In this document: piece by piece, positions 11,701-35,456 of the stretch
How positions within the stretch are numbered: the stretch's first letter is position 1
Layout: each line of letters begins with the position of its first letter
Origin: Gemmatimonadetes bacterium SCN 70-22
GTDB lineage: Bacteria > Gemmatimonadota > Gemmatimonadetes > Gemmatimonadales > Gemmatimonadaceae
Reading direction: 5' to 3'
DNA: 64,000 bases
NCBI GenBank assembly: GCA_001724275.1
Contig: MEDZ01000005.1
Span: 1 to 64,000, forward strand
Notes under the pieces: model-generated
The model's input: the letters and a program-made list of their open reading frames with translations, nothing else
Database searches by the model: none
Told to the model about the DNA's origin: nothing
Made by a program: the position numbers and the translations under genes

Positions 11701-11942
11701 ATCTCCTCGAGCTCCGGCAGGCCGAACATTGCCAGTTCCACGGGCAGCGTGATCTGTCGCTCCACCTCGAGCGGCGACAGCGCCGCGGCGTTCGTATTGA
11801 TCTGGACCTGTACGTTGGTTACGTCGGGAACCGCGTCGATGGGCAGCCGCATCGCGGACCAGATGCCGACGCCGATGAGCAGAGCCACAAGGGCTAGCAC
11901 CAGCAGCCGCTGCTTGAGCACGAAGGCTATGAGGGAAGTCAT
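8772..11942 (-). CDS. czcA: CzcA-type heavy-metal RND efflux pump
   Basis: The product is 1056 residues, typical for HME-RND inner-membrane pumps with two repeats of six helices and two periplasmic loops. The N-terminus MTSLIAFVLKQRLLVLALVALLIGVG and RLPIDAVPDVTNVQVQINT are classic. TM4 carries D-F-G-L-V-V-D-G-S-V-V-M-V-E-N, the signature of the divalent Zn/Co/Cd/Ni group (HME1/2) rather than copper pumps. It uses proton import to push periplasmic metal into an outer-membrane channel, with CzcB and CzcC encoded just upstream. The start is 8 bp after the CzcB stop and the end overlaps the PII-like gene by 4 bp. Confidence 0.95.
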   Translation of the reverse strand: MTSLIAFVLKQRLLVLALVALLIGVGIWSAMRLPIDAVPDVTNVQVQINTNAAALSPLEVERQITLPVELAMFGLPELEEIRAISKFGLSQVTVVFKEGTDIYFARQQVQERLQQAREQIPERIGRPEMGPISSGLGEIFQYTVSARDTTGLDPTELRTLQDWVVAPQLRGVPGVAEVNAFGGFEKQYQVLVRPEALIQYDLTLSQVLNAIAANNQNAGGGYITQGAEQLVIRGVGQVQNLEQIQGIVVASRNGTPVRVGDLADVVIGSTIRQGAVTKDGTGEVVTGIVLMRLGSNSRTVVNAVKERFATAAKSLPPGIELRAFYDRTELVDRTIKTVEKNLVEGAVLVVVILFLLLGNLRAAFIVALAIPLSMLFAVSLMVKAGIAGSLMSLGAIDFGLVVDGSVVMVENSMRRLGHRRSGEGFVATVLSACSEVARPILFGVGIIIVVYLPILTLEGVEGKMFKPMALTVVFALVGSLLLTFLLTPVLISLLLKGKVEEKDVWLVRKAKAIYEPALEWTLANVRKVLTGSVVAVALAVGLAPFLGSEFIPRLDEGSFALQVLRLPSVSLEESVRQTTQLETVLLEAFPDEIEDVVAKTGRPEIATDPMGVNISDIFVLLKPHDGWSKAESKGELEEKMSAVLSEIPGLVFSFSQPIELRVNELIAGVRSDLAIKVYGDDLSQLSTIADQVVAEVSKLDGATGFKAQQLEGLPQLQVTVLPEQLSRYGINSADVMQVVEAIGGVQASEVLEGQRRFALTVRFPATVRRNASTIAGILVSAPNGQRVPLGTLARVETVNGPAEISHENGSRLVIIEGNVRGRDIGSFVGDVRALFEGGTITLPTGYRPEFGGQFENLERASRRLTLVVPLSLLLIFVLLFATFNSVRQAALVFTGIPLATVGGVIALFLRGMPFSISAGVGFIALFGIAVLNGVVMVSYMNELRMHGMPLERAIREGGMTRLRPVLMTALVASFGFIPMAISTGAGAEVQQPLATVVIGGLVTSTLLTLLVLPLLYLLFERKQAERDSEREPEAHVAQGVPAAPHTDLIASGGHPS

Positions 11943-11950
11943 CGGCTCTC

Positions 11951-14736: not shown

Positions 14737-14988
14737 GAGCTGAGCTCTCCCGAAGTGATCGAGTGCGTCCGATCCGCGCCCGGAAGGCAATCCGATCTCG
14801 CTATCAGCGGGATGGTAGCCGAATACGGGATTCGAGAAGCCCGTAACTCCGGAACGCGGCGATGGTGGCGGACGCGAACGTTGAGTGAAATGCGCGTAGC
14901 TCGGAGCGCCGACTGGTGGGCGGTGTCCGGCGATCTTCACGAGGCTGGCGGGGACGTCACGCGAGCACGCTCGTGAAGCGCGATCGGC

Positions 14989-17369: not shown

Positions 17370-18215
17370 CTACCGCACTTCGAACGTCAGCGTCGCCCAC
17401 TTCGACTCGTAGTCCACCGAATCCTTCGCGACCTTGGTCATGTTGATGAACTTGACGTACCACACGCCCGCCGCCGCGAGCGGAATGTTCGCGATGCCTT
17501 GCGCGTCCGAGCGCGTGCTCTTCTGCTCGATCCCACCGGCACCGTTCGCAAGCTCGCCGCCGTAGAGGACGTACTGGTTCGCGGCCGGCTTGCCATCGAC
17601 CAGCGTCTTCACCCGCAGGGTCGCCCCTTTCTGGAGGGTGTAGGGGTTCACCGTGGGGATGAGCTCTGCCGGGTAGCCCATCGGCGTGGCATACAGCTCG
17701 CTCCGTGCACTCCCGACCTGCACGAGCGCCTTCACGTGCTTGTGGTACCGCTCCTTGGCCGGCTTGTTCAGCTCCCCGGCCTTGGTCCGCGCCTCCAGCA
17801 CGTCGGGAATACCGTCGTCCTTCAGGTAGAGGTTGAAGTCGTCCGCCGAGAGATCGATCTGGGCCGCCTTGGTGGAGACGCCGATGACGTAGGTGCCCGC
17901 GGCGCGGGTGTGGATGTGAAAGGTGCTCGTGTCCCCCTTCACTCCCCATTCGGCCGTGTCGAGCTTGATGCGACCACGCGGGGTGAGCACGCTCGCGTCG
18001 GCAAGCCGATTTCGGGCGATCGAGTTCTCGCTCTTGGAGAAGGTGCCGTTGAGGAGCCTGACGCGCACCTCGGCGTTCTCGGGAGCAAAGAAACGCGTGG
18101 GCTTCACGAACATGTCGTGCGCGGCGGCGATCGTCGCCGAGGCGAGCAGCAGGGCGACGGCAGCGGCGGCAGGAGCGACGCGACGAGCGCGCGACGACGA
18201 CTGTGGAACGGGCAT
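17370..18215 (-). CDS. DUF4198-family periplasmic protein, end of operon 2
   Basis: The product is 281 residues from ATG 18215, with GGAGAG upstream (minus strand). The signal peptide AAVALLLASATIAAA is followed directly by HDMFVKPTRFF, the conserved His at the mature N-terminus of DUF4198 proteins. These have a two-domain Ig-like build and often sit with nickel/cobalt or RND metal genes. Two HE/HK-rich segments (ERYHKHVKAL, STFHIHTRAAG) could bind metal. A second, diverged DUF4198 copy lies at 31451-32314. Confidence 0.85.
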   Translation of the reverse strand: MPVPQSSSRARRVAPAAAAVALLLASATIAAAHDMFVKPTRFFAPENAEVRVRLLNGTFSKSENSIARNRLADASVLTPRGRIKLDTAEWGVKGDTSTFHIHTRAAGTYVIGVSTKAAQIDLSADDFNLYLKDDGIPDVLEARTKAGELNKPAKERYHKHVKALVQVGSARSELYATPMGYPAELIPTVNPYTLQKGATLRVKTLVDGKPAANQYVLYGGELANGAGGIEQKSTRSDAQGIANIPLAAAGVWYVKFINMTKVAKDSVDYESKWATLTFEVR

Positions 18216-18299
18216 TGGGCTACTCTCCAGTATGGGGATGGGGGACAAACAGGGGACCAGTACCTGCGGGAGAGCGAGGCATCGTGGCCACCGCGGCGT

Positions 18300-18603: not shown

Positions 18604-19308
18604 TCAGCCTCCGAAGGAACGCGTGACGAAGTAGCCGACGAGCTGGTAACCCATCAGCACGAAACCGGCGGACATGATGGCGACGTTTGCCGACCACGCG
18701 CGGCGATCAAAGCTGGGAAGGCGACGCCAGTACGACATCGCGATGAGGATCGTGCTCAGCGCGAGAATCTGCCCCAGCTCCACGCCGACGTTGAAGGCCA
18801 CGAGGTTCGGAACGAGTCCCTCGGGCGAGACTTGGAAGTCGAGGATCTTGGTCGCCAACCCCAATCCGTGGAAGAGCCCGAAGACCAGCGTCGCGACGCG
18901 CGGGTTCGGGCTGCGCCCGAACCACCGCTCGAAGGCCCGGAGATTGTCCAGCGCCTTGTAGACCACCGAGAGCCCGATGATGGCGTCGATCACGTGGGCG
19001 TTGACGCCCACTCCCGTCAGCACGCCGGCCAGCAGGGTGACCGAGTGGCCGACCGCGAAGAGCGTGACGTAGAGCGCCACGTCCTTGAGCCGGTACAGGA
19101 AGAAGATCACCCCAAGCAGGAAGAGCAGGTGATCGTAACCCGTGATCATGTGCTTGGCGCCAAGATAGGCGAACGGGATGAGGAGCACGCCGGACATCTC
19201 CTGCAGGTACCCCTTGTCGCCCGCCGCCACGCCGTGCGCCAGCGCCGCACTGGGGAGCAGGAGCAAGGGGATGGCAAAGGCCAGCAGCCGCGCAAGTAAT
19301 GGTCTCAT
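18604..19308 (-). CDS. HupE/UreJ-family membrane protein
   Basis: The 234-residue protein has signal sequence LLAFAIPLLLLPSAALAHG, then about six helices with the HupE hallmark G-Y-D-H-L-L-F-L and FGLFHGLGLA, H-S-V-T. HupE/UreJ proteins are linked to nickel or cobalt permeation in hydrogenase and urease systems. In RND operons the role is probably metal movement across the inner membrane. The start overlaps the RND pump stop by ATGA. Confidence 0.88.
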   Translation of the reverse strand: MRPLLARLLAFAIPLLLLPSAALAHGVAAGDKGYLQEMSGVLLIPFAYLGAKHMITGYDHLLFLLGVIFFLYRLKDVALYVTLFAVGHSVTLLAGVLTGVGVNAHVIDAIIGLSVVYKALDNLRAFERWFGRSPNPRVATLVFGLFHGLGLATKILDFQVSPEGLVPNLVAFNVGVELGQILALSTILIAMSYWRRLPSFDRRAWSANVAIMSAGFVLMGYQLVGYFVTRSFGG

Positions 19309-22300
19309 GAACGGGAGGATGGCATGGAGGTGGCGAGTGCGGGGGTCAGGCCGCCGATCTCGCCACGGGGTGTGAGCTCGAACGACGTGGCCGGCGCCAC
19401 CGCGCGTTCGCCATACAGCCAGTACAGCGCGGGGACCACGAGCATGTTCAAGGCGGTCGCCGACAGGAGTCCGCCCAGGATCACGATGGCCATCGGCGTC
19501 TGCAGCTCGTTGCCGGGCTCCCCGCCGCCTAACGCCAGCGGGATGAGTGCGAGCCCCGCCGTGAGCGCGGTCATCAGGATCGGCGACAGGCGCTCGAGCG
19601 AGCCCCGCACTACCGCCTCGCGGAACGGGACTCCTTCTGCCAGGAGCTGCCGGTAGTGTGACACGAGGAGGATCCCGTTGCGGGTGGCGATGCCGAAGAG
19701 TGTCACGAAGCCCACCAGCGACGCGATGCTCACGACGCGCCCGGTGATCAGGACGGCGACAACCCCGCCGATGAGCGCCAACGGGAGGTTGGCCATGACG
19801 AGCGTGGCGGTGCGCGCCGAGCGGAACTCCATGAAGAGGATGATGAAGATCGCGGCGATGGCGAGGAGCGACAGGGCGCCGAGCGTGCGCGTGGCCTCGG
19901 CTTGCGCCTCGAACTGGCCGCCATATTCCACGAAGTAGCCGGGCGGAAGCGATACCTGCTCGCTCACTGTGCGCCGGATCTCCTCGACGGTGCTCCCCAG
20001 GTCGCGCCCGGCCACGTTGGCCTGCACCACGATTTTGCGTTGCACGTTCTCGCGCGAGATGGTATTCGGCCCGCGGTCGACGGTGACCGTTGCGAGTTGC
20101 GAGAGCGGGACGCGCTGTCCGGTGGGAGTGTCGAAGGGGACCGCGGCGATGGCCTCGGCGTTGGCGCGTAGCGTCTCGGGGAATCGCACGACCAGGTCGA
20201 CGCTCCGCCCCTGTTCCAGCACCTGCGACACCACCTCACCGTTGAGCGCCACGTCGATCCCCTGGGCGAGCTGCCCTACGCTCATCCCGTAGCGGGCGAG
20301 CGCCGTGCGATCGGCGCGGATGCGGAGCTGGGGGACGTCCATCTGCTGCTCGAGCTGCAGGTCTGCCACGCCCGGCACTCCCTGCATCACGTCGCGCACG
20401 CTCGCCCCCACCTGGCGGAGCTGATACAGGTCGGGACCGAAGATCTTCACGGCGATGTTGGCCCGCGTCCCCGAGAGCATGTGGTCGATGCGGTGGCCGA
20501 TTGGCTGGCCAACGGTCACGCTCGTTCCCGGTATCGCCGAGAATGCGCTGCGCAGCTCCTCGAAGACCGCCTCCTTGTCGATGCCGTCCTTCAACGTCAC
20601 GTCGATCTCGGCGGCATTGACCCCCTGCGCGTGTTCGTCGAGCTCCGCTCGTCCCTGACGGCGGTCGGTGTTGAGCACGGCGGCGTTCGCCTTGAGGATC
20701 CCCTCGACGCGGCGCCCGATACCGTTGGATTCCTCGAGTGACGTCCCCGGGACCGTGACGACCGAGACGGTCAGCGCCCCTTCGTTGAACTCGGGGAGAA
20801 AGGCGGAGCCGAGGAGCGGGAGGGTGCCTAACGTCGCGGCGAGGGCGAGGGCGGCGAAGGCAAGGACACGTTTGGGATGCGCCAACACCGGCTGGAGCAC
20901 CCGGTCATACCGCGCCTTGAGCCAGGTGACGAGCCGGCTCTCGTGCTCGCGCTGCACCGCGCCGGAGTTCGGCAGGAGGTAGGCGCACAGGACCGGGGTG
21001 ACCGTGACGGCGACGAGGAGCGAGGCGAGGATGGAGACGACGTAGGCGAAGCCCAGGGGACGAAGGAGCCGTCCCTCCACACCACCCAGGAAGAAGAGCG
21101 GGAGAAAGACGACGATGATGATCATGGTCGCATTCACGATGCTGGCCCTTATCTCCTTCGACGCGTCGAAGACGACGCGCAGCGCGCTGCGACGCTCGCC
21201 GTCCGGCCGGTGATGGTTCTCCTTGAGCCTCCGGAAGACGTTCTCGACGTCGATGATGGCGTCGTCGACCAGCGCCCCGATGGCGATCGCCATGCCGCCC
21301 AGCGTCATCGTGTTCACCGTGATCCCGAGGAGCTTCATGGCGAAGATCGCCACCACCAGCGACAGTGGAATCGCCACCACCGAGATCGCCGTTGCCCGGA
21401 AGTTCCAGAGGAAGAGGAAGAGGACGACGACGACCAGCACCGCGCCGTCGCGCAGCGCCTTGACCACGTTGTCGACGGCGACTCGGATGAAGTCCGCCTG
21501 ACGGAAGAGATCGGAGTGAATCGTGACTCCCTTGGGGAGCGTTGGCTGTATCGCGGCCAGCTCGCGCTCGATGCGTCCCGTGAGCTCCAGCGTGTTGGCA
21601 CCGGGTTGTTTCTGCACCGCGAGCACCACGCCGGGGGCCGCGTCGACCGAGCCGTCGCCAAACTTGGGCGCCGTTCCCACGCGCACGTCGGCCACCTGCG
21701 ACAGGAGGACCGGGACGCTGCCGCGCACCGCGACCACCGTCCGCGCGATCTCGTCGACCGACTGCACCCGCCCGATCCCGCGAATCACGTACTCCTGGCC
21801 CTTGTCCATGTACACGCCGCCCGAGGCGTTGGCGTTCGAGCCGCGCGCGGCGCGCACCACTTCATCGAGCGTGACACCGGCGCTGAGCATGCGCGCCGGG
21901 TCGGCGAGCACCTGGTACTGCTTCACCCCTCCCCCGATGGGGATCACCTGCGCCACACCGGGAACGGCGAGCAACCGGCGACGGATGGTCCAATCGGCGA
22001 TGGTGCGCAGCTCGCGGGCCGAGCTGTCGGTCGCCGGTGCAGCCCCGGTCAGGCCGATCATCAGGATCTCGCCCATCACGCTCGACACCGGGGCGAGCAC
22101 GGGCGCGGAGATCCCGTCCGGCAGCGCAGCGGTCACCACCTGCAACTTCTCGGCGACGATCTGTCGCGCGCGGAAGATGTCGGTCCCCCAGTCGAATTCC
22201 ACCCAGACGACCGAGATACCCTGTGCCGTCGACGAACGCACGCGGCGCACGCCGGTGGCGCCGTTGACGGCGGTTTCGATGGGGAAGGAGACGAGCGCCT

Positions 22301-22484
22301 CGACTTCTTCCGGCGCCATCCCGTGCGCTTCGGTCAGGACCGTGACCGTGGGCGCGGTGAGGTCGGGGAAGACGTCCACGGGCATGCGCCACGCGGTCCA
22401 CGCGCCGCCGACGAGCATCACCCCCGCGATGGCGAGGACGACGACGCGGTTGCGGAGCGAGAGGGCAATGAGGTTGTTCAGCAT
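19305..22484 (-). CDS. CzcA/CusA-family heavy-metal RND pump, operon 2
   Basis: The product is 1059 residues from ATG 22484 (MLNNLIALSLRNRVVVLAI); the frame stays open further upstream but that extension overlaps the adaptor and is not homologous. Periplasmic loops and the IPIGGGVKQYQVLADPARM region are typical HME. TM4 reads G-G-M-A-I-A-I-G-A-L-V-D-D-A-I-I-D-V-E-N, so it lacks the DFG of operon 1 CzcA. Metal specificity therefore differs and is not predictable from the motif. It is followed by HupE with a 4-bp overlap. Confidence 0.93.
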   Translation of the reverse strand: MLNNLIALSLRNRVVVLAIAGVMLVGGAWTAWRMPVDVFPDLTAPTVTVLTEAHGMAPEEVEALVSFPIETAVNGATGVRRVRSSTAQGISVVWVEFDWGTDIFRARQIVAEKLQVVTAALPDGISAPVLAPVSSVMGEILMIGLTGAAPATDSSARELRTIADWTIRRRLLAVPGVAQVIPIGGGVKQYQVLADPARMLSAGVTLDEVVRAARGSNANASGGVYMDKGQEYVIRGIGRVQSVDEIARTVVAVRGSVPVLLSQVADVRVGTAPKFGDGSVDAAPGVVLAVQKQPGANTLELTGRIERELAAIQPTLPKGVTIHSDLFRQADFIRVAVDNVVKALRDGAVLVVVVLFLFLWNFRATAISVVAIPLSLVVAIFAMKLLGITVNTMTLGGMAIAIGALVDDAIIDVENVFRRLKENHHRPDGERRSALRVVFDASKEIRASIVNATMIIIVVFLPLFFLGGVEGRLLRPLGFAYVVSILASLLVAVTVTPVLCAYLLPNSGAVQREHESRLVTWLKARYDRVLQPVLAHPKRVLAFAALALAATLGTLPLLGSAFLPEFNEGALTVSVVTVPGTSLEESNGIGRRVEGILKANAAVLNTDRRQGRAELDEHAQGVNAAEIDVTLKDGIDKEAVFEELRSAFSAIPGTSVTVGQPIGHRIDHMLSGTRANIAVKIFGPDLYQLRQVGASVRDVMQGVPGVADLQLEQQMDVPQLRIRADRTALARYGMSVGQLAQGIDVALNGEVVSQVLEQGRSVDLVVRFPETLRANAEAIAAVPFDTPTGQRVPLSQLATVTVDRGPNTISRENVQRKIVVQANVAGRDLGSTVEEIRRTVSEQVSLPPGYFVEYGGQFEAQAEATRTLGALSLLAIAAIFIILFMEFRSARTATLVMANLPLALIGGVVAVLITGRVVSIASLVGFVTLFGIATRNGILLVSHYRQLLAEGVPFREAVVRGSLERLSPILMTALTAGLALIPLALGGGEPGNELQTPMAIVILGGLLSATALNMLVVPALYWLYGERAVAPATSFELTPRGEIGGLTPALATSMPSSRS

Positions 22485-22497
22485 TCGCTCTCCCGCT

Positions 22498-24027
22498 CTA
22501 GTGCTCGTGGCCCTGCGCCGGCACGCTCGTGGAGAGCGAGGCCAGCCGAATCTGATAGGCGGCACCGGTCACCACCCGCTCCCCCACCGCGATCCCCGTG
22601 CGAAGGAGTACACGATCGCCCTCCCGCCCGGCGATGGTGAGCTCTCGCTTCACGAACGATTCGCCGTCGGGCTGTATGTAGGCAATGGCACGACCATCCT
22701 CGTCGAGCACCGCCGACGCGGGAATCGTCACGCCGCGTTCGCGCTGACCCGTGCGTACGGCGACCCGTGCATTCGCCCCGACCTTCAACGACCCGTCGGG
22801 GTTGGCCACCTCGAACAGGACGGGGACGGTGCGCGAGAGCGAGTCGATGATACTTCCCACCGAGACGACGCGCCGCGCCGAATAGGCGCGGGGCGATCCC
22901 TCGACCAGGAACTCCACTCCGGAGCTCCGCGAGACGTTCGGCGCCTGCGCCGCGGGCACATTCACTCGCAGCCACACCACCGACGCGTCGACGATCGTGA
23001 ATAGCGGGGCCCCCGCCTCCACGCGGCTCCCGGGGGTTATGCGTCGCTCGGCGACGACGCCGCCCACGGGCGAGCGCACCGTCACGCGGCCGCCGGCGTC
23101 GGTGCCGTAGCCGGCGAGCGCCTCCTTGGCCGCGGTGAGCCGGATCTCGGCCGCGCGCACGCGCCGTTGCGGCACCGCCTCGACGGCCACGAGTCGCTGG
23201 GCGCGGTCGTACTCATCCTGGGCCTCGCGCAGCCGCGCGCGTGCCTCGGCCACCAGCGCCCCGCCCCCATCGCCTAACGACGGCGCCAGGACGGCGAGCA
23301 CCTGTCCGCGTCCCACCCGCTCCCCGGGCACCGGCGACCTGGCGATCCCGGAAGCATCCACCAGTCCGGCCACCGGGGCACTCACCTGCGCCCAACGCCC
23401 TGCCTGCGGCTCGATCACCCCCGACGCCTCGAAGGTCGCTGCCACCTCGCCTTCGGCGGCGAAGGCGGTGGTGAAGCCCGGCGTCTTCCACTGCTGCTCC
23501 TTGAGGAAGGAGATCGCGCGCTCTCCCCCGGCGTCCACCAGCGGCGCCTCGGCCACGCTGGCATACACCGGCAGGCCCGGCACGGTGATGCTGTCCTTCG
23601 CCTGCGGCGAGTCGACGAGAATCGTGAGGTCGTACGTTCCCGGGCGCTCGAAAGTGGGCGCCGGGCCGTAGATCCCCGGCGCCCGAGGCGTCTCCTGCAC
23701 GACCACCACCGGTGCTCCCCCGTCCCGTGCACGGAAGGTGAGCGTGATGCGCCCGGAGCGGAGTGGCGCGAAGTCGGTGAGGTCCGTCAGGTGCACCGCG
23801 AACTTGTCCGGCGCGCCGACGATCAGCGCCGGATGCTCCATGAAGAGCTCCGTCGAGTCGGTCCAGAGGGTGATGGCGCCTCCCGCGGGTTCGGGCGCTT
23901 CGGGGGCGGCGCTCGCGCCGTCGCCGGCGCCACCGCGGCCACAGGCGCCTAACGCCAACAGGGTCGCGCCGAGCAGCGCCGCGCGTGGCGCGCGTGGCGC
24001 GCGAAAGGTTACAGGCATCGTGATCAT
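22498..24027 (-). CDS. RND periplasmic adaptor lipoprotein, operon 2
   Basis: The 509 residues start MITMPVTFRAP with an ATGA overlap to the channel stop. Lipobox LLALGAC comes first. An extra N-terminal Ig-like domain of about 150 residues follows (HPALIVGAPDKFAVHLTDLTDFAPLRSGRITL), as in CusB-like adaptors with added sensor domains. Then come the barrel and hairpin (APSLGDGGGALVAEARARLREAQDEY) and the lipoyl/beta-barrel end, finishing in GHEH, a small His tag that could bind metal. It bridges the RND pump and the outer channel. Confidence 0.9.
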   Translation of the reverse strand: MITMPVTFRAPRAPRAALLGATLLALGACGRGGAGDGASAAPEAPEPAGGAITLWTDSTELFMEHPALIVGAPDKFAVHLTDLTDFAPLRSGRITLTFRARDGGAPVVVVQETPRAPGIYGPAPTFERPGTYDLTILVDSPQAKDSITVPGLPVYASVAEAPLVDAGGERAISFLKEQQWKTPGFTTAFAAEGEVAATFEASGVIEPQAGRWAQVSAPVAGLVDASGIARSPVPGERVGRGQVLAVLAPSLGDGGGALVAEARARLREAQDEYDRAQRLVAVEAVPQRRVRAAEIRLTAAKEALAGYGTDAGGRVTVRSPVGGVVAERRITPGSRVEAGAPLFTIVDASVVWLRVNVPAAQAPNVSRSSGVEFLVEGSPRAYSARRVVSVGSIIDSLSRTVPVLFEVANPDGSLKVGANARVAVRTGQRERGVTIPASAVLDEDGRAIAYIQPDGESFVKRELTIAGREGDRVLLRTGIAVGERVVTGAAYQIRLASLSTSVPAQGHEH

Positions 24028-25355
24028 TGGTCAGGCGAGTCAGAGGGGAACAGCGCCGTGCCGACGGCGCGCGCGAGCGCAGCCTGTCGGATGGCGACTT
24101 CTGCCTGCAGGGTGAGGTAGGTGGACTCTGCGTCCTGATAGGCGCGGACGGCGTCAAGCCACTCGAGGAGGGTGATCTCTCCTTCGACGTAGGACGCCTG
24201 CACCGCCTGCACGGCGATGCGGGCGTCTGCCCCGAGGTGCGGGGCGAGCGCCGCGCGCTGTGCCTCGGCGGCCCGCAGGGCGTCCAGGGCGTCGGTCACC
24301 TCGCGACCCACGCGCCGCCGCGCGACATCGACTTCGGCGGCGACGCGGCGCGCGTCGGATTCCGCCGCCGCGACGGCGCTGGCGCGCCGGTCGAAGACCG
24401 GGAGGGGAATCGACACCCCAGCGATGATGCCGCGGAAGCCGGTGAGCGAGCCCAGCGACGGATCGGCCAGACGCTCACCCTTGTAACCGGCGGACAACGT
24501 CGGCGTTGGAATCCGTTCGCGCGCCGCCAGGCGGGCCTCCGCCGACGCGACTGCGGCATCGAGTGCAACGGCACGCACGTCCGCGCGCTCGCGTTCCGCG
24601 CGTTGCAGCAGCGAGTCGAGGGAGAGCGCCGCGAGCGCAGTGGCGGTCGCCGGCAGCTCGTCTGGAAGTGCGAGCGAGTCGCCCGCCGCGGTCGGCAAAC
24701 CCATGAGCGTCGAGAGCGCGGTGCGTGTCGAGCGACGCTCCAGCGCCGCACCCGCTCGGACCGCCGCGAAACGCGCGGCTTCGAGCCGAAGCCGCCGCGC
24801 CGAGTAGCCGGAGACGTCACCCGCGGTGAGCCGCTGCTCGCTGACGCGCTGTGCCTCCGTGAACGCGCTCGCCGTCCGCTCGGCGAGGCGCACCCGTTGA
24901 TCGGCGGCCACTGCAAAGGCGAAGGCGCGGGCCACGTCGAAATCGAGTTGCCCCATCGTTGCGGCGAGTCGTGCCTCGGCCCCCTCGCGTCGCAACCGCG
25001 CCGCTTCGCGTCGCGCTGCGCGCTGCCCGCCGACCTCGAGCGGCTGCTCGAACTGCGCGATGTCCTGCGCATTGGTCTGGCCTGCTCGGGAGGTTTGTTC
25101 GCGACTGTACGCGAGCGTGGGATTGAGAAACGCGCCGGCCTGGCGTTCGCGATCCGCCGCGGCGTTCACCGCCTCACGGGCCGCACGCAACTCGGGACTG
25201 GCGCGGCGCGCGGCCGTCAGGGCGGCATTCAAGGTGAGCTGCCCATCGGCACTGCGTGGGGGCAGCAGGAGGGCAGAGCCGCTCGCGAAGATCGTGAGGG
25301 CTGGTCGAAACACGCCGAGCTGTCGCATTCGGCGCATGAAGCAGGAGGTGGACAA
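24024..25355 (-). CDS. TolC-family outer-membrane channel, operon 2
   Basis: The 443 residues have a signal region (ALTIFASGSALLLPPRSADGQ) and two OEP repeats (ASPELRAAREAVNAAADRERQAG, RADVRAVALDAAVASAEARLAARE). It ends VRAYQDAESTYLTLQAEVAIRQAALARAVG. It is the outer-membrane duct of the second RND system. The 185 bp before it (25356-25540) hold no recognised gene. Alternative starts at MRRM (25337) are possible. Confidence 0.9.
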   Translation of the reverse strand: MSTSCFMRRMRQLGVFRPALTIFASGSALLLPPRSADGQLTLNAALTAARRASPELRAAREAVNAAADRERQAGAFLNPTLAYSREQTSRAGQTNAQDIAQFEQPLEVGGQRAARREAARLRREGAEARLAATMGQLDFDVARAFAFAVAADQRVRLAERTASAFTEAQRVSEQRLTAGDVSGYSARRLRLEAARFAAVRAGAALERRSTRTALSTLMGLPTAAGDSLALPDELPATATALAALSLDSLLQRAERERADVRAVALDAAVASAEARLAARERIPTPTLSAGYKGERLADPSLGSLTGFRGIIAGVSIPLPVFDRRASAVAAAESDARRVAAEVDVARRRVGREVTDALDALRAAEAQRAALAPHLGADARIAVQAVQASYVEGEITLLEWLDAVRAYQDAESTYLTLQAEVAIRQAALARAVGTALFPSDSPDQ

Positions 25356-25540
25356 GGCTGACCTGAGCTGGCGTGTCGCTCGACGCTCCTATCGACGCGG
25401 CAGGGAAGCCGCGCCCGGATGCGCGCGATTCGGAGACGTCCGCGTCGGGGCGCGACGTGGAGGACGGCGAACGCAGGACACCTCGAGACGTCAGTGGCTC
25501 GCCCGCTGGGGCGGGGGCTCGGTGACGTGCGAGGGGTCGG

Positions 25541-26017
25541 TCAGAGGGTGGGTGGGGCCCGCAGGGTGGGTGGCGGGCCTTGCTCCGGATCGGGGCGCGC
25601 GAGGAGCACGCGGTCGGTGCGGGCTGGTGCGCGCACCGCATGGAGCGGGTCGTGAATCGTGACCGGGGCCGCGACCATGGCCGCGACGCTCGGCGCCGTG
25701 GCGAGTCGGATCAGCTCCTGGGCTCTCGGAACGGCGTCGAGGCGGAGGTGCCCATGTGCGTGATCGTCATTCGGTGCATTCGCTGCAGCCACGTGATGCG
25801 CCGGGACGTCTCGAGCCGGAGCGTCGTGATGCTTCGCGTGCTCGGCCGTGCGGCCACTCCCGTGTCGTTGCGCCAGGTGCTCGTGCACCTGCCCGTGCGA
25901 CAATGCCAGCACGGGACCCGAAAAGCCCCCCATGAGGGCGATGGCGAACGCGATCAGGCGAAAGAGGGGGGTTTGGCGCACGTTCCAATGTATAGGAATA
26001 ACCACTCGTTTGCGCAT
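25541..26017 (-). CDS. Secreted His-rich protein of operon 2
   Basis: The 158 residues have hydrophobic helix LFRLIAFAIALMGGFSGPVLA and then a His-dense stretch (HGQVHEHLAQRHGSGR, EHAKHHDAPARD, HHVAAAN, DDHAHGHL) at about residues 41-95. The C-terminus is Pro/Arg-rich. No named family is recognised. Like the His/Cys protein at the head of operon 1 it precedes the channel gene. It probably buffers or delivers metal in the periplasm. It lies 90 bp downstream of the metallothionein-like gene on the same strand. Confidence 0.6.
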   Translation of the reverse strand: MRKRVVIPIHWNVRQTPLFRLIAFAIALMGGFSGPVLALSHGQVHEHLAQRHGSGRTAEHAKHHDAPARDVPAHHVAAANAPNDDHAHGHLRLDAVPRAQELIRLATAPSVAAMVAAPVTIHDPLHAVRAPARTDRVLLARPDPEQGPPPTLRAPPTL

Positions 26018-26107
26018 GGCCGCGTATTTGGCGGCGCGCCACGTCGCATTCGACGCGTACCGGGCGGCGATCCCCGTCTCGAGGCCATCATCGCCCGCTG
26101 GCGACGC

Positions 26108-26203
26108 TCAGTCGCAACAACACTGCCCGCAGCAAGGGCCCGCGTCGCAGCCGCATGCGCAGCAGCAGGAAGGATTCTCGCAGCAACAAACGTCGCTCTT
26201 CAT
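26108..26203 (-). CDS. Metallothionein-like 31-residue peptide with 13 cysteines
   Basis: From ATG 26203-26201 to TGA 26110-26108 a 31-residue peptide reads MKSDV, then CCC, ENPS, CCC, A-C-G-C, DAGP, CC, GQ, CCC, D. Cysteines fall at positions 6-8, 13-15, 17, 19, 24, 25 and 28-30: 42 percent of residues. GGGAGAG ends six bases before the ATG, a proper ribosome binding site. There is no signal peptide, so it is cytosolic. Composition (Cys, Gly, Ser, Pro, Asp, no aromatics) is that of a metal-thiolate peptide such as metallothionein, but spacing differs from the cyanobacterial SmtA/BmtA pattern I know. Location at the head of the RND operon 2 strand fits a metal role. It is easily missed by gene callers because of its size. 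Confidence 0.75.
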   Translation of the reverse strand: MKSDVCCCENPSCCCACGCDAGPCCGQCCCD

Positions 26204-26298
26204 CGCCGTCTCTCCCAAGTTGGTGGGCAGAAGCTACGAGTTCGCGGGTAGGCAATCAAGCTGAACCGCGCCAACTGCCCTCCGCCGCCCACTGCATC

Positions 26299-28350
26299 CT
26301 AACGCGCCACCCTCGTCGCGAGAGGGAGGCGCAGCTCGAACGTGCTCCCGACGCCCGGTGTACTCTCGACGGTCAGGTCGCCCCCCATGCCGCGCGCCAG
26401 GTCCCGGCTGATGGCGAGCCCGAGGCCGGTGCCCTCGTGAGCGCGCGTGAGCGGCGCCGATACTTGCACGAAGGGATCGAAGATGCGTGCCCAATGTTTG
26501 CTGTCGATGCCGACCCCCGTGTCGGTCACCGTGATGCGAACGACCGGCTGCGCCACGTCCCGTTGCGCCACGTACCGCAGTTCGAGGCGTCCGCCGGGCG
26601 CCGTGAACTTGATGGCGTTCGAGAGCAGGTTGAGCAGGATCTGCTGCATCTTCTCACGGTCGGCACGGACCCGGAGCGCCGGGTCGCCGGACATGCGCTC
26701 CAGCGTCAGCCCCTTCTGGCGGACCTGAGGCGCAGTGAGCGACTCGCTCGTGATCAGGATCTCATCGATCGACACGTCTTCCAGGTGGTACCGCTCGGCG
26801 CCAGCCTCGATGCGCGCGAAGCTCAGGACACCGTCGATGAGCCCCAGCAGGTGGCGCTCGCTCCTCCGGATCCGTCCGATGTCCTCGCGTTGGGCATCAG
26901 TCAACGGCCCGCGGATTCCCAGCTCCAGCAACTCGGCGTAACCGTCGATCGCGTTGAGGGGGGTGCGCAGCTCGTGACTCATTACTGCGAGGAACTCGCT
27001 CTTTGCCCGATTGGCCTCCTCCGCCGCGTGGCGCAGTCGCCGCTCGGGCTCGATGTTCGTATTGATGCCGAACCACCGGACCACGTGTCCCTCGGCGTCG
27101 CGTGCCGGCACGATCCGGGTGAGGAAGGGGCGAAACTCTCCGTCCGCCCCGCGCAGCGGAAAGGTCATCTCGAACGGCTCACCCGTTCCGATCGAGGCCC
27201 GCCATCGCGCCAGCACCGACGGCAGCGTCTCCGGATCGTGCACCGACTGCCACCCCCACCCCTCCATCTCGCTCGCCGTGGTGCCCGTGTACTCGTACCA
27301 GCGCGCGTTGTACCAGTCGATGTAGCCGTCTGGCTGAGCCATCCATGCGAGGGTGGGGATGGCGTCCACGAGGGCGCGGAATTTCGCCTCGCTCGCGCGC
27401 ACCTCCGCGAGCGCGCGTTCCGCCGCCCGACGGGCCTCCACCTGCTCGGTCACGTCGGTGCCGTGGGCGATCACGGCGAGATCGCTGCCGTCCGCCTCCA
27501 CGAGTGGCAGGTACGTCACGTCGAGGAAGCGCTCCTCGAGCGGCGCCCCTTTCTGGCGATGGAGCAACACGGGCAAGTCCCGAAACACCAACGACTCGCC
27601 CGTGCGGCGGACGTGCCCCAGGTAGTCGTCGAACCCCTGCCCGCGGGTCTCCGGGAGCGCGTCGAGCAGCGGCTTTCCCACCACCTCGCGCCCGTGCCCG
27701 ATGATCTGCTCGTACGCGCCGTTCACGAGCTCGAACACGTTGTCGGGGCCGCGGAGGACGGCGAGAAACGATGGCGATTGGCGGAAGACCGCCTCCAGAT
27801 GCGAGTGCTCGATCTGCATCGCCCGGAGCAGCGGCTCCCGCTCCCGCTCGGCCTGAATCCGTGGGGTGGTCTCCGTGCAGACGACGAGTGTGCCGCCGAT
27901 GGTGCCGTCGTCGTCGTAGACAGGGCTATAGCCGTACGTCCAGTACACCTCCTCCAGGCGCCCATTCCGCACGATGGGGACGAGGTGGTCTTCGTGCCAC
28001 GTCGCCTCCCCGCGCGTCATCACCCCCTCGATCTGCGGGCCGATGATGGGCCAGATGTCCGTCCAGAACTCCGCGCCACGCATTCCCAGCGCCCCCGGGT
28101 GGCGCCCACCCTCCCCGAACGACGGACGGTAGGCGTCGTTGTAGATCTGGACCAGGTCAGCCCCCCACCAGAGGAACATCGGGTGCCGCGAGGCGAGCAC
28201 GATGCCGACGGCGGTGCGCAAGCTCGAGGACCAGCGCTCGACGGGCCCGAGCGGGGTGGCGGCCCAGTCGAGGGCACGACACCGCGCGGCCATCTCGCCG
28301 TCGCCGATGAAGACCGTGCCGAGAGACCGGGGCGCGTCAGCGCTCGTCAT
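26299..28350 (-). CDS. PAS-domain sensor histidine kinase
   Basis: The product is 683 residues from ATG 28350. The frame is open further upstream but the part before MTSADAPRSLG is not kinase-like. The domain order is an N-terminal PAS-like module (RHPMFLWWGADLVQIYNDAYRP), a second PAS (HLEAVFRQSPSFLAVLRGPDNVFELVNGAYEQI), a third PAS/PAC (FRALVDAIPTLAWMAQPDGYIDWYNARWYEYTG), HisKA with phospho-acceptor H459 in VMSHELRTPLNA, and HATPase with NLLSNAIKFT and GTGLGLAI. There are no membrane helices, so it is a soluble sensor. No response regulator is adjacent, so the partner is unknown. A link to the metal operon is positional only. Confidence 0.88.
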   Translation of the reverse strand: MTSADAPRSLGTVFIGDGEMAARCRALDWAATPLGPVERWSSSLRTAVGIVLASRHPMFLWWGADLVQIYNDAYRPSFGEGGRHPGALGMRGAEFWTDIWPIIGPQIEGVMTRGEATWHEDHLVPIVRNGRLEEVYWTYGYSPVYDDDGTIGGTLVVCTETTPRIQAEREREPLLRAMQIEHSHLEAVFRQSPSFLAVLRGPDNVFELVNGAYEQIIGHGREVVGKPLLDALPETRGQGFDDYLGHVRRTGESLVFRDLPVLLHRQKGAPLEERFLDVTYLPLVEADGSDLAVIAHGTDVTEQVEARRAAERALAEVRASEAKFRALVDAIPTLAWMAQPDGYIDWYNARWYEYTGTTASEMEGWGWQSVHDPETLPSVLARWRASIGTGEPFEMTFPLRGADGEFRPFLTRIVPARDAEGHVVRWFGINTNIEPERRLRHAAEEANRAKSEFLAVMSHELRTPLNAIDGYAELLELGIRGPLTDAQREDIGRIRRSERHLLGLIDGVLSFARIEAGAERYHLEDVSIDEILITSESLTAPQVRQKGLTLERMSGDPALRVRADREKMQQILLNLLSNAIKFTAPGGRLELRYVAQRDVAQPVVRITVTDTGVGIDSKHWARIFDPFVQVSAPLTRAHEGTGLGLAISRDLARGMGGDLTVESTPGVGSTFELRLPLATRVAR

Positions 28351-28416
28351 GCGAAACCATGCGATCTCCCGCACCTGTGTGGCGACCGGCGGCAACTTAC
28401 CGTCCGGAGGCCTAAC

Positions 28417-28449
28417 GGCAAGCGAAGGGCAAGCGAACGGCAAGCGAAG
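28417..28449. repeat. 11-bp tandem repeat, three copies
   Basis: The unit GGCAAGCGAAG is repeated at 28417, 28428 and 28439 (middle copy ends C). It lies in the spacer between the kinase start and the divergent ArsR-rhodanese gene. The period is 11 bp, like several duplications elsewhere in the window. Confidence 0.85.
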
Positions 28450-28534
28450 GGCGGCGCTCCGACAGGGCGCGCATGCGGCGTGATCGGCAGCCTCGTCCAC
28501 CACCGCTCGCTTGCGCCGCACGATCCCTGGTTCT

Positions 28535-28560
28535 AGTATTCCGACAATCACTGGAATACT
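28535..28560. promoter_or_regulatory. Inverted repeat operator before ArsR-rhodanese gene
   Basis: AGTATTCC (28535-28542) and GGAATACT (28553-28560) are a perfect 8-bp inverted repeat with a 10-bp spacer, ending 9 bp before the GTG start at 28570. Position and symmetry suit autoregulation by the ArsR protein. Confidence 0.65.
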
Positions 28561-28569
28561 GGAGTCCTC

Positions 28570-29292
28570 GTGGACCACCGCCGCGTCAAGGATCGCCTCT
28601 ACGCCGCCTGGGCCGACACCGCCAAGGCGCTCGCCAGCCCCAAACGCGTCGAGCTGCTCGACCTGCTCGCGCAAGGCGAGCGCACCGTCGAGGCACTCGC
28701 GCGCGAGGCTGGGCTTACCGTCAACAATACCAGCTCACACCTGACAGTCCTCAAGGGCGCCCGCCTGGTCGAGACACGCAAGGAGGCGCAGTTCGTCTTC
28801 TACCGCCTCGCCGATGACGCGGTCGTCGTCCTCGTTCGCGAGATCCAATCGCTCGCCCGGCGACGGCTGCACGAAGTCGAGCACCTGGCCCATACCTACT
28901 TCGACGGACGCGACCCGCTCGAACCGGTCAGCGCGGCCGAGCTCCGACGCCGGCTCGCCGCCGGCGAAGTGACAGTCATCGACGTCCGCCCCGCCCTCGA
29001 GTACGAGGCGGGGCACATCGCTGGCGCTAGCTCATTCCCCGTCGACGCGCTCGAATCCCGACTGGGCGACTTGCCGCCGGAACACCCCGTCGTCGCATAC
29101 TGCCGCGGCCCGTACTGTGTCTACGCGATCGAGGCCGTCGAACGCTTGCGCGCGCGCGGCTTCGACGCGCGCCGGCTCGCCGAGGGGCTCCCTGAGTGGC
29201 GACTGGCGGGATATCCGGTAGCAGTAGGCCCCGAGCCTCCCCGCGCGTCAACTCCTCCACCCGTACGCGCCTCGCGTCGGAGGGCGTCATGA
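28570..29292 (+). CDS. ArsR-family regulator fused to a rhodanese domain
   Basis: The product is 240 residues from a GTG start. Residues about 10-110 are a winged-helix ArsR domain (ALASPKRVELLDLLAQGERTVEALARE, NNTSSHLTVLKGARLVETRKEAQFVFYRL). Residues about 120-220 are a rhodanese domain (VTVIDVRPALEYEAGHIAGASSFPVDALE) whose active loop is C-R-G-P-Y-C. ArsR-rhodanese proteins are known as sulfur or redox-linked regulators next to persulfide or MBL genes. No ArsR metal-site cysteines are visible, so the sensing residue may be the rhodanese Cys. The stop overlaps the next gene start. Confidence 0.9.
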   Translation: MDHRRVKDRLYAAWADTAKALASPKRVELLDLLAQGERTVEALAREAGLTVNNTSSHLTVLKGARLVETRKEAQFVFYRLADDAVVVLVREIQSLARRRLHEVEHLAHTYFDGRDPLEPVSAAELRRRLAAGEVTVIDVRPALEYEAGHIAGASSFPVDALESRLGDLPPEHPVVAYCRGPYCVYAIEAVERLRARGFDARRLAEGLPEWRLAGYPVAVGPEPPRASTPPPVRASRRRAS

Positions 29293-29927
29293 TCGTGCGT
29301 CACTACCTGCACACGGACCACGTCTCCACGGGCCGCGCGCTGGCCGCGGCGTCGGGCGCGCCGTACGTCCTGCACGCGAGTGCCGGCGCCAGATATCCCT
29401 TCCACGCAGTGCGCGACCGCGACAGCCTGTCTTTAGGCAACGTGACGGCGACGGTCTGGCACGCGCCGGGCCATACCCCAGAGCACCTCGCACCCGTCGT
29501 CACCGACCGCGCGCGCGCCGAGGAGCCGTGGCTCATCTTCACGGGGCATACGCTCATGGTGGGTGACCTGGGGCCTACCGAGCTCGCGGCAAGCACCGAG
29601 GAAGGGGCGCGCGCACTGGCCGCCAGCGCCGCGCGCCTCCGCACGCTGAGCGACTTCGTCCAGGTCCTCCCGGGCGCCTTCTCCGGCTCCGTCTGCGGCC
29701 GCGGGCTGAGCGGCAATCCATTCTCCACCATCGGCTTCGAACGGCGCTTCAACCGGGCCTTCCGCGTCACCGACACCGGGGCGCTGGTCGCGATGATGCT
29801 GCAGGACATCCCGCCGCGCCCGCCGCGCGCCGCGGATACGCGAGCCGTGAACATGGGGGTCGCACAACACACGCACAGCGACAGTACGCACGACGCCCGA
29901 CCCGACACCATGCAAACCTCGCCGTGA
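29289..29927 (+). CDS. Degenerate, N-terminally shortened metallo-beta-lactamase-fold protein
   Basis: The 212-residue product resembles the rhodanese-associated MBL hydrolases (persulfide dioxygenase-like) in NVTATVWHAPGHTPEHLAPVV and SGNPFSTIGFERRFNRAF. Three ligand sites are altered. The first His motif is cut: only L-H-T-D-H-V-S remains where T-H-x-H-A-D-H is usual, because about 50 N-terminal residues are missing. FTG-H-T stands where FTG-D-T is usual. PG-A-F-S-G-S stands where PG-H-x-x-G-S is usual. It begins with an ATGA overlap, so it is translated. It is probably non-catalytic, or has a changed metal centre. Confidence 0.75.
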   Translation: MIVRHYLHTDHVSTGRALAAASGAPYVLHASAGARYPFHAVRDRDSLSLGNVTATVWHAPGHTPEHLAPVVTDRARAEEPWLIFTGHTLMVGDLGPTELAASTEEGARALAASAARLRTLSDFVQVLPGAFSGSVCGRGLSGNPFSTIGFERRFNRAFRVTDTGALVAMMLQDIPPRPPRAADTRAVNMGVAQHTHSDSTHDARPDTMQTSP

Positions 29928-31450: not shown

Positions 31451-32314
31451 TCAGTGGCCGGCGGCGCGGAAGACGAGGGTGGCGAAGAACACGTCCCACG
31501 TACCCGCCGCACCCTCGGCAGGGGCGGCGTGCAGCGTGCGGACGTTCCACGGGCCGGCCCGGTCGATCGGCAGCCGCGCCTCGCCGTCGTCGCCCGTCAC
31601 GATCGACACATCCCGCGCTTTCGTCGTGTCACCCTCGGCGGGCGCCGCGCCGGCATGCAGGTGCGCGCCCGCCAGCGGCCGGCCGCGGAAGAGGAGCTGC
31701 ACGACGAGCGTGTCGCCCATGTGCAGGGTCGCCGGATCGGTCACCGGCACGAACTCCAGCGGGTGCCCGGCCGTGCGCCGGAAGGCGCGTGGGCCGCCTC
31801 GTCCCACCTCGACGAGCGTCTTCGCATACTTCGTCGTCCGTTGTGTCACGCTGTCCGTAGTGGGCAGGATGCCGTCCCGCTCGTAGCGCTCGGCCAACTC
31901 CGGAGCGCCCTCGAGCGCGATGTAGCGCTTGAGCGCTGCCGAGGCCGCGCGCGAGGTGCGGGTGACGAGCCCCACGGCGACGACGCGTTGCCCGGCTGTC
32001 GTCGGTCGATGCCGGATGCGGAGCGACTTGCCGCTCACCGACAAGTCGCCGATGCGCTCCTCGCCGGCCGCGCCGATCAGCCGCGCTTCGGCGACGCGAT
32101 CGGGCGCCACGGCCGAGAGGCTGGTCGGGAACGCGGTGCTGGTCTGGCCATGCACCTCCAGCGCGCCGTCGGTCGCGACCTCGAATGCGGTGGGAACGAT
32201 CCAGAAGTCGTGGGCAGAGAGCGCGACGGCGCTTGCCGCGAAAAGGACGCCGGCCAGCACAGCGGTGGTCAACGACTGCCGCCAGCGGCGGGACGGGGAA
32301 ATCGAGTTGCGCAC
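31451..32314 (-). CDS. DUF4198-family periplasmic protein, second copy
   Basis: The product is 287 residues from GTG 32314 (VRNSISPSRRW). Signal helix TTAVLAGVLFAASAVALS leads to A-H-D-F-W-I-V-P, the conserved mature N-terminus with His-Asp. HLHAGAAPAEGD and RTLHAAP are further His sites. It is diverged from the copy at 17370-18215. A perfect palindrome precedes the start. It is probably a periplasmic metal-binding accessory. No pump gene adjoins it here. Confidence 0.82.
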   Translation of the reverse strand: MRNSISPSRRWRQSLTTAVLAGVLFAASAVALSAHDFWIVPTAFEVATDGALEVHGQTSTAFPTSLSAVAPDRVAEARLIGAAGEERIGDLSVSGKSLRIRHRPTTAGQRVVAVGLVTRTSRAASAALKRYIALEGAPELAERYERDGILPTTDSVTQRTTKYAKTLVEVGRGGPRAFRRTAGHPLEFVPVTDPATLHMGDTLVVQLLFRGRPLAGAHLHAGAAPAEGDTTKARDVSIVTGDDGEARLPIDRAGPWNVRTLHAAPAEGAAGTWDVFFATLVFRAAGH

Positions 32315-32348
32315 GGGTGCCTTCGGTGAGTGGAGGGGTGAACCGGCA

Positions 32349-32372
32349 CGACAGGCATCGCGATGCCTGTCG
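32349..32372. promoter_or_regulatory. 24-bp perfect palindrome upstream of DUF4198 gene
   Basis: Bases 32349-32360 (CGACAGGCATCG) and 32361-32372 are exact reverse complements. It lies about 35 bp upstream of the GTG start at 32314, in the likely leader. It could be a dimeric repressor site or an RNA hairpin. If translation began at ATG 32395 it would be coding, which I think less likely. Confidence 0.5.
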
Positions 32373-32494
32373 GTTCGCTGACGCCAGCTATCCAATTGCT
32401 TTACGCCCTATAGAACGCCCCCGGCGCTGCGCTGTCAATGCTCCAAGACACGTCAGGGTGCGGCCCCACGAGTCGCCCGGCAGAGAGGCGGCTG

Positions 32495-33208: not shown

Positions 33209-33250
33209 CGCCGCGGCGGTGAATGGCTCAGGCCATTCACCGCCGCGGCG
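33209..33250. terminator. 19-bp stem hairpin between convergent genes
   Basis: Arms 33209-33227 and 33232-33250 are perfect reverse complements around the loop TCAG. The right arm overlaps the stop codon of the CopC-CopD gene (33237-33239). The SodC-like gene ends at 33167 on the other side, so it can terminate both. Confidence 0.65.
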
Positions 33251-34811
33251 TCACCGCGTCCGTCCCAACCTCGCCCCTCGTCTCACCTGCCGCCTGCGTC
33301 GTCGCCGTGGCGTCCATCGTCGCGTCCATCGTCGCGTCCATCGTCGCGTCCATCGTCGCGTCCATCGGCGTCGGGGTGGCCACGAGCACAGCCGTCACGG
33401 CGAGGACCAGCACGCCGACCGCCAGCTCGAGCGTCGCCGAGCGGCGGATGCGGATAGCACCCTGCGCGGTCCCCAACGTCGGCTTGACGCGTAGCCAGTT
33501 GTAGGCGCCCGTCGCTGCCACGGCCGAGAGGACAGCCAGCTTGAGCAGCAGTGTCCGGCCGTACGCCGACTGCCAGAGCGCGCTCACGGCATCGAGATGG
33601 AGCCAGGCGGAGAAGACGCCCGTCGCGGCCGCGATTCCGGCAAACACCAGTGCCGTCGGAGAGAAGGCGTTGACGAGATCTGCCACGCCGCGTTCGCGCG
33701 CGCCCTCCGGAAGTTGACGGGCGGCCGGGATGCCAACGGCGACGACGAACAGGAGGCTGCCGAGCCAGCCGGCGGCGCCGATCACATGCGCGCTATCGGC
33801 GAGAACCGCCAGTGGCGTCAACGTGGGCACCGCGGCCGCGTGGCCGGAGAGAGCGGGCGTGAAGGCGAGGGCCACGACGCCGAGTAGGGCGACCGCCCAC
33901 CCCGACCGACGTGCACGGCGTGCCGAGAGGAAGCCGGCGACCGCGATCGTGACGCCCACTGCTTGAAGCACCCATCCCCATCCCCACACGGTCCGGCTCA
34001 GCATCGTGGCGATCAACGCGGGATCGAGCGCGCGCTCCGCCCCCTGCAGGGCGAACGACTGGGCGTACAAGCGGAGCAGCGCGCCCACGCCGAGAAGAGC
34101 GGTCGCCCACAGCCCGAGCGCAGCCGCGCGCGCGCTCGCCGGCGCGAGCATCGGCGAGTCGGGATCCTGGGCACGCCGGAGGAAGCCCAGCACGAAGAAG
34201 TGGAAGGCGACGGCACCGAGTGCAACGAGCAGCGCGGTGAAGGTCACCCACCGGATCGCCACGTAGAGCGGCGACTCCGCGGCGAATCCATTGCCCGTCG
34301 GCATAGTGACGGGATCGTGGTGCGCGGCAGGTGGCGGGACCTGCCCCGGCGCCGTGACACCGCCAGCGGCCTCGCCGGGAAGCGGCGTCGCGGCGCCGAC
34401 AACCGACGAGTCGGTGAGTCCGCTCGCGCCCGGCATGATCCTGAAGGTGAACCGTTCACGCACGGGGTGCCCATCGGCCCCAGCCATCTGCCAGGCTACG
34501 GTGTACTTCCCCTCACGCAGCGCGCCACGAATCGCGGCGACGACCACGCGGCGGGCGTCGCCGTCGGCGAAGGCGACCGGCCCGAGGACGACCGCTTGGC
34601 TGTCTGGGCCAAAGAGCTCGATGCGCGTGAAGGCCAGCTCCGTCGCCTCGGTGAACGTGAGCCGCAGTTCCGTCGGCACCGCCGACAGGGGCGCCCCGGC
34701 TCTAGGTGCCGAGCTTTTGAGCTTCCCGTGCGCCAGCGCGGCAGTCGGTGTCAGGAGCGCGAGGGCCAGCAATCCGCGGAGAAGTCGAGAGGGGAGGCGC
34801 ACGTTGTCCAT
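33237..34811 (-). CDS. CopC-CopD fusion copper resistance membrane protein
   Basis: The product is 524 residues from ATG 34811. Signal sequence LLALALLTPTAALA is followed at once by H-G-K-L-K-S-S-A-P, the N-terminal copper-binding His of CopC. A CopC beta-domain to about residue 125 ends with D-G-H-P-V-R-E-R-F-T-F. Then come a linker and an eight-helix CopD domain (GHAAAVPTLTPLAVLADSAHVIGAAGWLGSLLF). The C-terminus carries MDAT repeats. CopC-CopD fusions are linked to copper import across the inner membrane or copper tolerance. The cytoplasmic tail is repetitive and poorly conserved. Confidence 0.9.
   Translation of the reverse strand: MDNVRLPSRLLRGLLALALLTPTAALAHGKLKSSAPRAGAPLSAVPTELRLTFTEATELAFTRIELFGPDSQAVVLGPVAFADGDARRVVVAAIRGALREGKYTVAWQMAGADGHPVRERFTFRIMPGASGLTDSSVVGAATPLPGEAAGGVTAPGQVPPPAAHHDPVTMPTGNGFAAESPLYVAIRWVTFTALLVALGAVAFHFFVLGFLRRAQDPDSPMLAPASARAAALGLWATALLGVGALLRLYAQSFALQGAERALDPALIATMLSRTVWGWGWVLQAVGVTIAVAGFLSARRARRSGWAVALLGVVALAFTPALSGHAAAVPTLTPLAVLADSAHVIGAAGWLGSLLFVVAVGIPAARQLPEGARERGVADLVNAFSPTALVFAGIAAATGVFSAWLHLDAVSALWQSAYGRTLLLKLAVLSAVAATGAYNWLRVKPTLGTAQGAIRIRRSATLELAVGVLVLAVTAVLVATPTPMDATMDATMDATMDATMDATATTQAAGETRGEVGTDAVTPRR
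33310..33369. repeat. 12-bp tandem repeat encoding MDAT
   Basis: Five units of GCGTCCATCGTC, the last altered, give M-D-A-T repeats in the CopD tail. The 12-bp period keeps the frame. Confidence 0.9.
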
Positions 34812-35456
34812 ACCAGCATGGGCCGATGAGAGACGCCCTGCGGCACGATTCCGAGCCATGCGGCGGCCTCGGATCGTTCCTGCGGTGACGCCGCGCCGGC
34901 GGCGCGGATTTTACGCTGACTAAAGAATAACCCCGACTGCCCGACATGCGCCAGTCGGCTGGTATTCACGCCTGCGGCGAGCGCCGTCTGGGTGGAGGTG
35001 CAGGCGGCTTCTTGGTGGGTCATGGAGGTTTCCGCCATCTGGCCCACCTTCATCCTGACCATCCTGCCGGTCTGCTCATTGTGCCTCATCACGGCGCCAT
35101 TCGTCACCGTCTTCGCCGGGAGCGCCGGCGTGAACCCGACGCGAGACTCCGGCTCGTGCCGGCACGCAAGCAGAAGGTGCGAGTCATAGGTGAATGGAGC
35201 GAAAGCGGCGGGGGCCCGATGCTGACGCCACCCTTCGGCTGGGCTCGAGGGCGGATCGTCTCCTCGCAGGTGGAGGGCGAAGCATGGTGCCTTTACAACG
35301 CATCGAGTGTACGCGCCGCATGAAATGCGTCTGCCGGGAGGCGGCATGAACCTACGCCCACCCCGAACAACACCTTGCGCGGGAAGCCGCGGGCGATGAG
35401 ACTCGCGCATCGCCCAAGGCAGTCAACGGTCTAGCCGGCTGCGGCCATGCTCCAGC
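34812..35456. other. Intergenic, no supported gene
   Basis: This is about 645 bp between the divergently read CopC-CopD gene and the nuclease-like gene. Minus- and plus-strand frames exist, one with a single hydrophobic stretch near 35020-35130, but none has family features. An AT-richer patch near 34910-34935 may hold the CopC-CopD promoter. Confidence 0.4.

Follow-up and report, generated by a model that had tools for sequence, protein, structure and literature searches.

Few bacterial metallothionein families have been characterised, and according to a 2020 paper function had been investigated for only two proteins, SmtA and MymT, of which MymT is reported for copper (PMC7387436). CadR of Pseudomonas aeruginosa controls zrd, whose product has been described as metallothionein-like and contains zinc-ribbon domains for which binding of single metal ions is predicted (2025 paper, PMC12301328). 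Control of Zrd by CadR provides a precedent for a MerR-type link to metallothionein-like proteins. Here we analyse a cysteine-rich peptide encoded by Gemmatimonadetes bacterium SCN 70-22 (family Gemmatimonadaceae) within the first 64,000 nucleotides of contig MEDZ01000005.1, the whole of which we refer to as the window. A cysteine pattern shared with three relatives, together with a metal-sensing switch adjacent to the gene in each of them, points to a small protein that probably soaks up toxic metals.

The gene and its immediate upstream region comprise three features.

26108..26203, minus strand: cysteine-rich peptide gene, 31 residues (MKSDVCCCENPSCCCACGCDAGPCCGQCCCD), conserved in three other genera and not due to chance
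26212..26216, minus strand: GGGAG, a ribosome-binding-like site 8 nt 5' of the ATG (Shine-Dalgarno match GGAG at spacing 8)
26204..26298, minus strand: gap of 95 nt between the stop codon of a histidine kinase gene and the ATG of the peptide, presumably the promoter or leader region

The initial annotation had described a 31-residue frame with 42 percent cysteine, a ribosome binding site and a start, and each of these elements is confirmed: the minus-strand frame occupies exactly 26203-26108 and ends in TGA, MKSDVCCCENPSCCCACGCDAGPCCGQCCCD contains 13 cysteines in 31 residues (42%), and GGGAG is found 8 nt ahead of the ATG. The clusters had been given as CCC/CCC/CxC/CC/CCC, which is correct overall except that the ‘CxC’ is in fact C-x-C-x-C, the full spacing being CCC-x6-CCC-x-C-x-C-x5-CC-x2-CCC. 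As had been claimed, a signal is missing, the sequence being devoid of a signal-like hydrophobic stretch. It also contains no histidine and no aromatic residue, and a zinc-finger fold is therefore not expected. Small size, cysteines in CCC/CxC/CC clusters and the absence of a signal-like stretch are traits of a metallothionein in the functional sense. The maximum number of cysteine codons per stop-free 25-codon stretch is 13 at the peptide and 8 elsewhere in the window, and is 5–7 in simulated 64-kb sequences (n = 120; Markov order 1 and 2, with the di- or trinucleotide make-up of the window), placing the 13-cysteine stretch far beyond chance.

Searches by tblastn, DNA pattern and profile, spanning 288 genomes of the order (179 from the family Gemmatimonadaceae), identified three relatives of 31–41 residues, each in a different Gemmatimonadaceae genus. 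Most weak tblastn matches were rejected as frames opposite other genes or as repeat tracts.

Relative in G028 (MAG Prado131): MTTADYATRTDTCCTDACCCDCPSCTCGCDGSPCCGKCCCD
Relative in G065 (MAG CAN_BIN14): MITELTSDACCCDCPSCGCGCDSGPCCGKCCCC
Relative in G188: MNSESCCCDCPNCTCGCEPGSPCCGNCCGSK

The four peptides contain 11–14 cysteines and have in common the pattern CCC[DE]xPxC(x2)xCGC[DE]x2-3PCCGxCC, in short CCC[DE]xPxC..CGC[DE]..PCCGxCC. Loss of the cysteine pattern in relatives had been named at the outset as an observation that would count against the peptide; it is instead conserved in three other genera, where the codon differences are mostly synonymous. The alignment has 14 invariant columns (C, P and G), 9 of which use more than one codon, and dN/dS is 0.10–0.22 in the four computable sequence pairs; in the two remaining pairs synonymous sites are saturated and non-synonymous divergence is 0.14–0.25 per site. 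Invariant residues with varying codons and low dN/dS are the mark of a selected protein-coding gene, and the frame is thus a real, conserved gene under purifying selection. That it could be a spurious TGC/TGT repeat without a product, as its shortness, its repeated TGC triplets and the lack of annotation support might suggest, is barely credible and already contradicted by the retention of the pattern across genera with synonymous drift, and by the Shine-Dalgarno-like sites that precede the peptide frames. Counting the window genome, 4 of the 288 genomes of the order carry the peptide, a rarity that suggests horizontal transfer or frequent loss.

The initial annotation had judged the cysteine spacing to differ from that of known bacterial metallothioneins. 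Consistent with this, Pfam returned no family at E ≤ 1 for the window peptide, NCBIfam returned no match, and by these searches the peptide is outside any catalogued metallothionein family, MymT being compared by its described features. A sequence search of the PDB gave no match, and PF02069 was not found in the window genome although a Synechococcus elongatus control was positive. Plasmids gave no match by tblastn. In viral contigs, none of 94 matches to a first pattern was confirmed, none of 9 matches to a second had the whole cysteine motif in a short frame, and a third pattern gave no match. A scan of 84,980 species with one DNA pattern yielded 27 matches, the only relatives being the two already known Gemmatimonadaceae copies; the other matches look like chance cysteine frames. 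This pattern is not exhaustive, as it misses TGT before GGN (G188, for example), and absence beyond Gemmatimonadaceae is therefore not proven by it. Searched with a profile, 359 genomes from the phylum of Polyangium and 367 from that of Verrucomicrobiaceae contained no relative, two weak matches being rejected because they lie inside long frames.

The peptide gene is surrounded in the window by the following genes.

26299..28674, minus strand: PAS-domain sensor histidine kinase, directly 5' of the peptide
25541..26017, minus strand: His-rich hypothetical protein of 158 residues that probably carries a signal sequence, 90 nt 3' of the peptide
24024..25355, minus strand: CzcC-like outer-membrane efflux protein (PF02321)
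22498..24027, minus strand: CzcB/CusB-like periplasmic adaptor (TIGR01730, PF16576)
19305..22565, minus strand: CusA/CzcA-family heavy-metal RND pump (TIGR00914)
8772-14940, minus strand: second set of RND pump, adaptor and outer-membrane factor, metal-resistance island
5752-8331, minus strand: heavy-metal P-type ATPase, metal-resistance island
45443-47869, plus strand: heavy-metal P-type ATPase, metal-resistance island

The position upstream of an RND operon on the same strand, as first annotated, is correct, since the next minus-strand frames are those of the His-rich protein, the outer-membrane factor, the adaptor and the RND pump, the last of which scores 840 bits against TIGR00914 (curated cutoff 701.45). 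No terminator-like hairpin was found at 25300-26700, which makes a shared transcript possible. The region is rich in metal genes, with CzcCBA, the second RND set, CopC-CopD and the two heavy-metal P-type ATPases lying around the peptide. The CopC-CopD fusion (33237-34859, minus strand) has a tandem MDAT repeat in its C-terminal part (MDATMDATMDATMDATMDAT), and two DUF4198 proteins (17370-18248 and 31451-32395, minus strand) flank the region of the RND and kinase genes. On the plus strand, the frame at 28570-29292 combines an ArsR-type regulator with a rhodanese domain; overlapping it, at 29196-29927, is a frame that resembles a metallo-beta-lactamase-type protein without its N-terminus, possibly through a frameshift or an unusual start.

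The adjacency to the RND operon is, however, not conserved. A congeneric genome (G001) has the hypothetical-CzcC-CzcB operon, with the His-rich protein kept ahead of CzcC (54% identity), but without the peptide and without the kinase, a DAHP-synthase-like gene lying upstream; and in none of the three relatives, within the stretches read, is the peptide next to an RND operon. The operon in G001 indicates that linkage of the peptide to RND genes is not general, even within the genus. The RND context is therefore weaker support than the initial annotation implied, and the strongest functional clue is the linkage to MerR regulators in the relatives.

All three relatives adjoin MerR-family metalloregulator genes, and their promoters contain a dyad and a spacer of 19 or 20 bp. 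In G188, the peptide gene comes immediately after the MerR gene, and the promoter in front (TTGACC-19-TAGGAT) contains a 9-4-9 dyad, ACCCTATAC-CTCC-GTATAAGGT. This unit has a CDF cation-efflux gene upstream and, downstream, a gene for a GDCCVxC-domain (seleno)protein (L073 7751-7984, minus strand). The order in G028 is TonB receptor, divergent MerRa, MerRb and peptide, with the stop codon of MerRb overlapping the ATG of the peptide, a further argument against a repeat without product. The promoter of this MerRb-peptide unit (TTGACT-20-TAGGAT) contains ACTCTGGAGCGCGCTCCAGAGT, both 9-base arms of which are identical to those of the published ZntR operator consensus, ACTCTGGAGTCGACTCCAGAGT (PMC1526738). 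The G065 peptide opens a unit that also contains a TonB receptor, a divergent MerR gene lies alongside, and the promoter directly ahead of the peptide (TTGACC-19-TACAAT) carries a perfect dyad, ACCTTGTAGCCACTACAAGGT, that is close to the CadR operator consensus AACCCTGTAGTTACTACAGGGTT (PMC12301328); a near-identical site is found at the TonB receptor of G028. Promoters of MerR type are rare: exactly four occur in the 47 kb of the three loci, all at these regulators, whereas the same scan counted 10 across 631 kb of other retrieved sequence.

Pfam recognises MerR domains in two of the four regulators and NCBIfam gives MerR-family matches in all four; within NCBIfam they fall among ZntR, CadR-PbrR, MerR and CueR, below every equivalog cutoff, so that the metal cannot be named. 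The C-terminal cysteine of the metal loop is found in all four and an earlier first cysteine in three, MerRb of G028 having Ala/Pro in that stretch. An extra, earlier cysteine is typical of divalent-metal sensors among MerR regulators. The window itself contains neither a relative of these MerR genes nor a promoter or operator of MerR type, the scan of the gap at 26204..26298 revealing neither a sigma-70 consensus nor a MerR-type dyad promoter. The three MerR-like genes detected in a genome-wide search lie on separate contigs or at a distance of 80 kb. The regulatory argument thus rests on the relatives.

These gene arrangements bear on the role of the peptide. Polycysteine short frames with attenuation have reportedly been found among mycobacterial short frames and are discussed in the literature, and the present peptide is short, has CCC runs and, in the window, is the first frame before an operon. 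It is nevertheless quite improbable that it is a leader at which ribosomes stall on cysteine codons when cysteine is short, thereby controlling downstream genes, as conservation extends to the non-cysteine residues (P, G and D/E) despite codon drift, unrelated genes follow the peptide in the different genomes with no cysteine gene among those seen, and at two loci, G188 and G028, the peptide comes second, after merR. Moreover, neither a terminator nor an attenuator structure was found after the frame, and folding of the RNA downstream is not better than that of shuffled sequences (z −0.78).

The TonB-dependent receptors (L072 7893-10220, minus strand, and L011 10695-13100, plus strand) are 63% identical between G065 and G028, each having a CadR-like operator and an adjacent MerR regulator, and a gene for an SBP family 5 transporter is near in G065. 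An outer-membrane importer under an apparent metal-excess activator is unusual. The presence of such receptors beside the peptide under the same operator type, the conservation of both receptors and regulators (65% identity between the G065 MerR and MerRa of G028) and the nearby transporter would fit a metal-binding natural product (RiPP or metallophore) made by modification of the peptide, exported and then re-imported via the receptor. This, too, is very improbable: none of the neighbours examined was recognisable as a RiPP-modifying enzyme, a TonB receptor of this type is absent from the window and not directly at the G188 gene, and there is almost no leader sequence ahead of the first cysteine.

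The metal transporters that adjoin the peptide in the window and in G188 could also suggest that, rather than acting as a sink, the peptide is a metallochaperone, or donor, passing metal to a sensor or to an efflux pump (CzcCBA in the window, CDF in G188). We regard this as unlikely, as the partners vary by locus (RND, CDF, TonB receptor) and 11–14 cysteines without a folded domain fit multi-metal storage better than delivery of a single ion.

The best explanation, and one we consider likely from the MerR linkage and the ZntR/CadR-like operators of the relatives, is a divalent-metal-inducible, metallothionein-like peptide for sequestration in the cytosol. A rise of divalent soft metals (Zn, Cd, Pb or Hg) would cause the peptide to be made, its 11–14 cysteines would wrap metal ions in a metal-thiolate cluster in the cytosol, and free metal would be lowered until efflux pumps remove it. 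The case rests on four sequences. The gene, its conservation and the linkage to regulator and promoter in the relatives are demonstrated, and we infer metal binding, the identity of the metal, inducibility in the window genome and joint action with CzcCBA. The possible new metallothionein of the initial annotation is thereby supported as a functional assignment by the conserved pattern, the MerR linkage and the lack of a family match. There is perhaps an even chance that it represents a family observed so far only in Gemmatimonadaceae, among the most cysteine-dense known in bacteria, under ZntR/CadR-like MerR control and moved from genome to genome as a small regulator-peptide cassette. At 31 residues with 13 cysteines, synthesis and direct titration are feasible, and would offer a minimal metal-thiolate cluster for study. 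The peptide also draws attention to a class of short genes adjoining merR-type regulators that may have been missed, with profile libraries probably overlooking such frames because they are short and low in complexity.

Comparison with known systems places the peptide near, but apart from, each. Like SmtA, BmtA and PmtA (PF02069) it is very small, cysteine-rich and without a signal peptide, and its relatives are likewise linked to a metalloregulator, which is of the MerR type instead of the ArsR family (SmtB in cyanobacteria). In contrast to PF02069, the window peptide has 31 rather than about 56 residues, a much denser cysteine content with CCC clusters and, in place of cysteine plus histidine ligands, neither histidine nor aromatic residues. 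The mycobacterial copper protein MymT, which has about 13 cysteines, is also a small, cysteine-rich bacterial peptide, but it is longer, comes from another phylum and is associated with copper, whereas the MerR operators of the relatives point to divalent metals. Zrd shares with the relatives a metallothionein-like character and control from an operator of MerR/CadR type, and differs in its zinc ribbons, in place of which the window peptide has clustered CCC/CC motifs.
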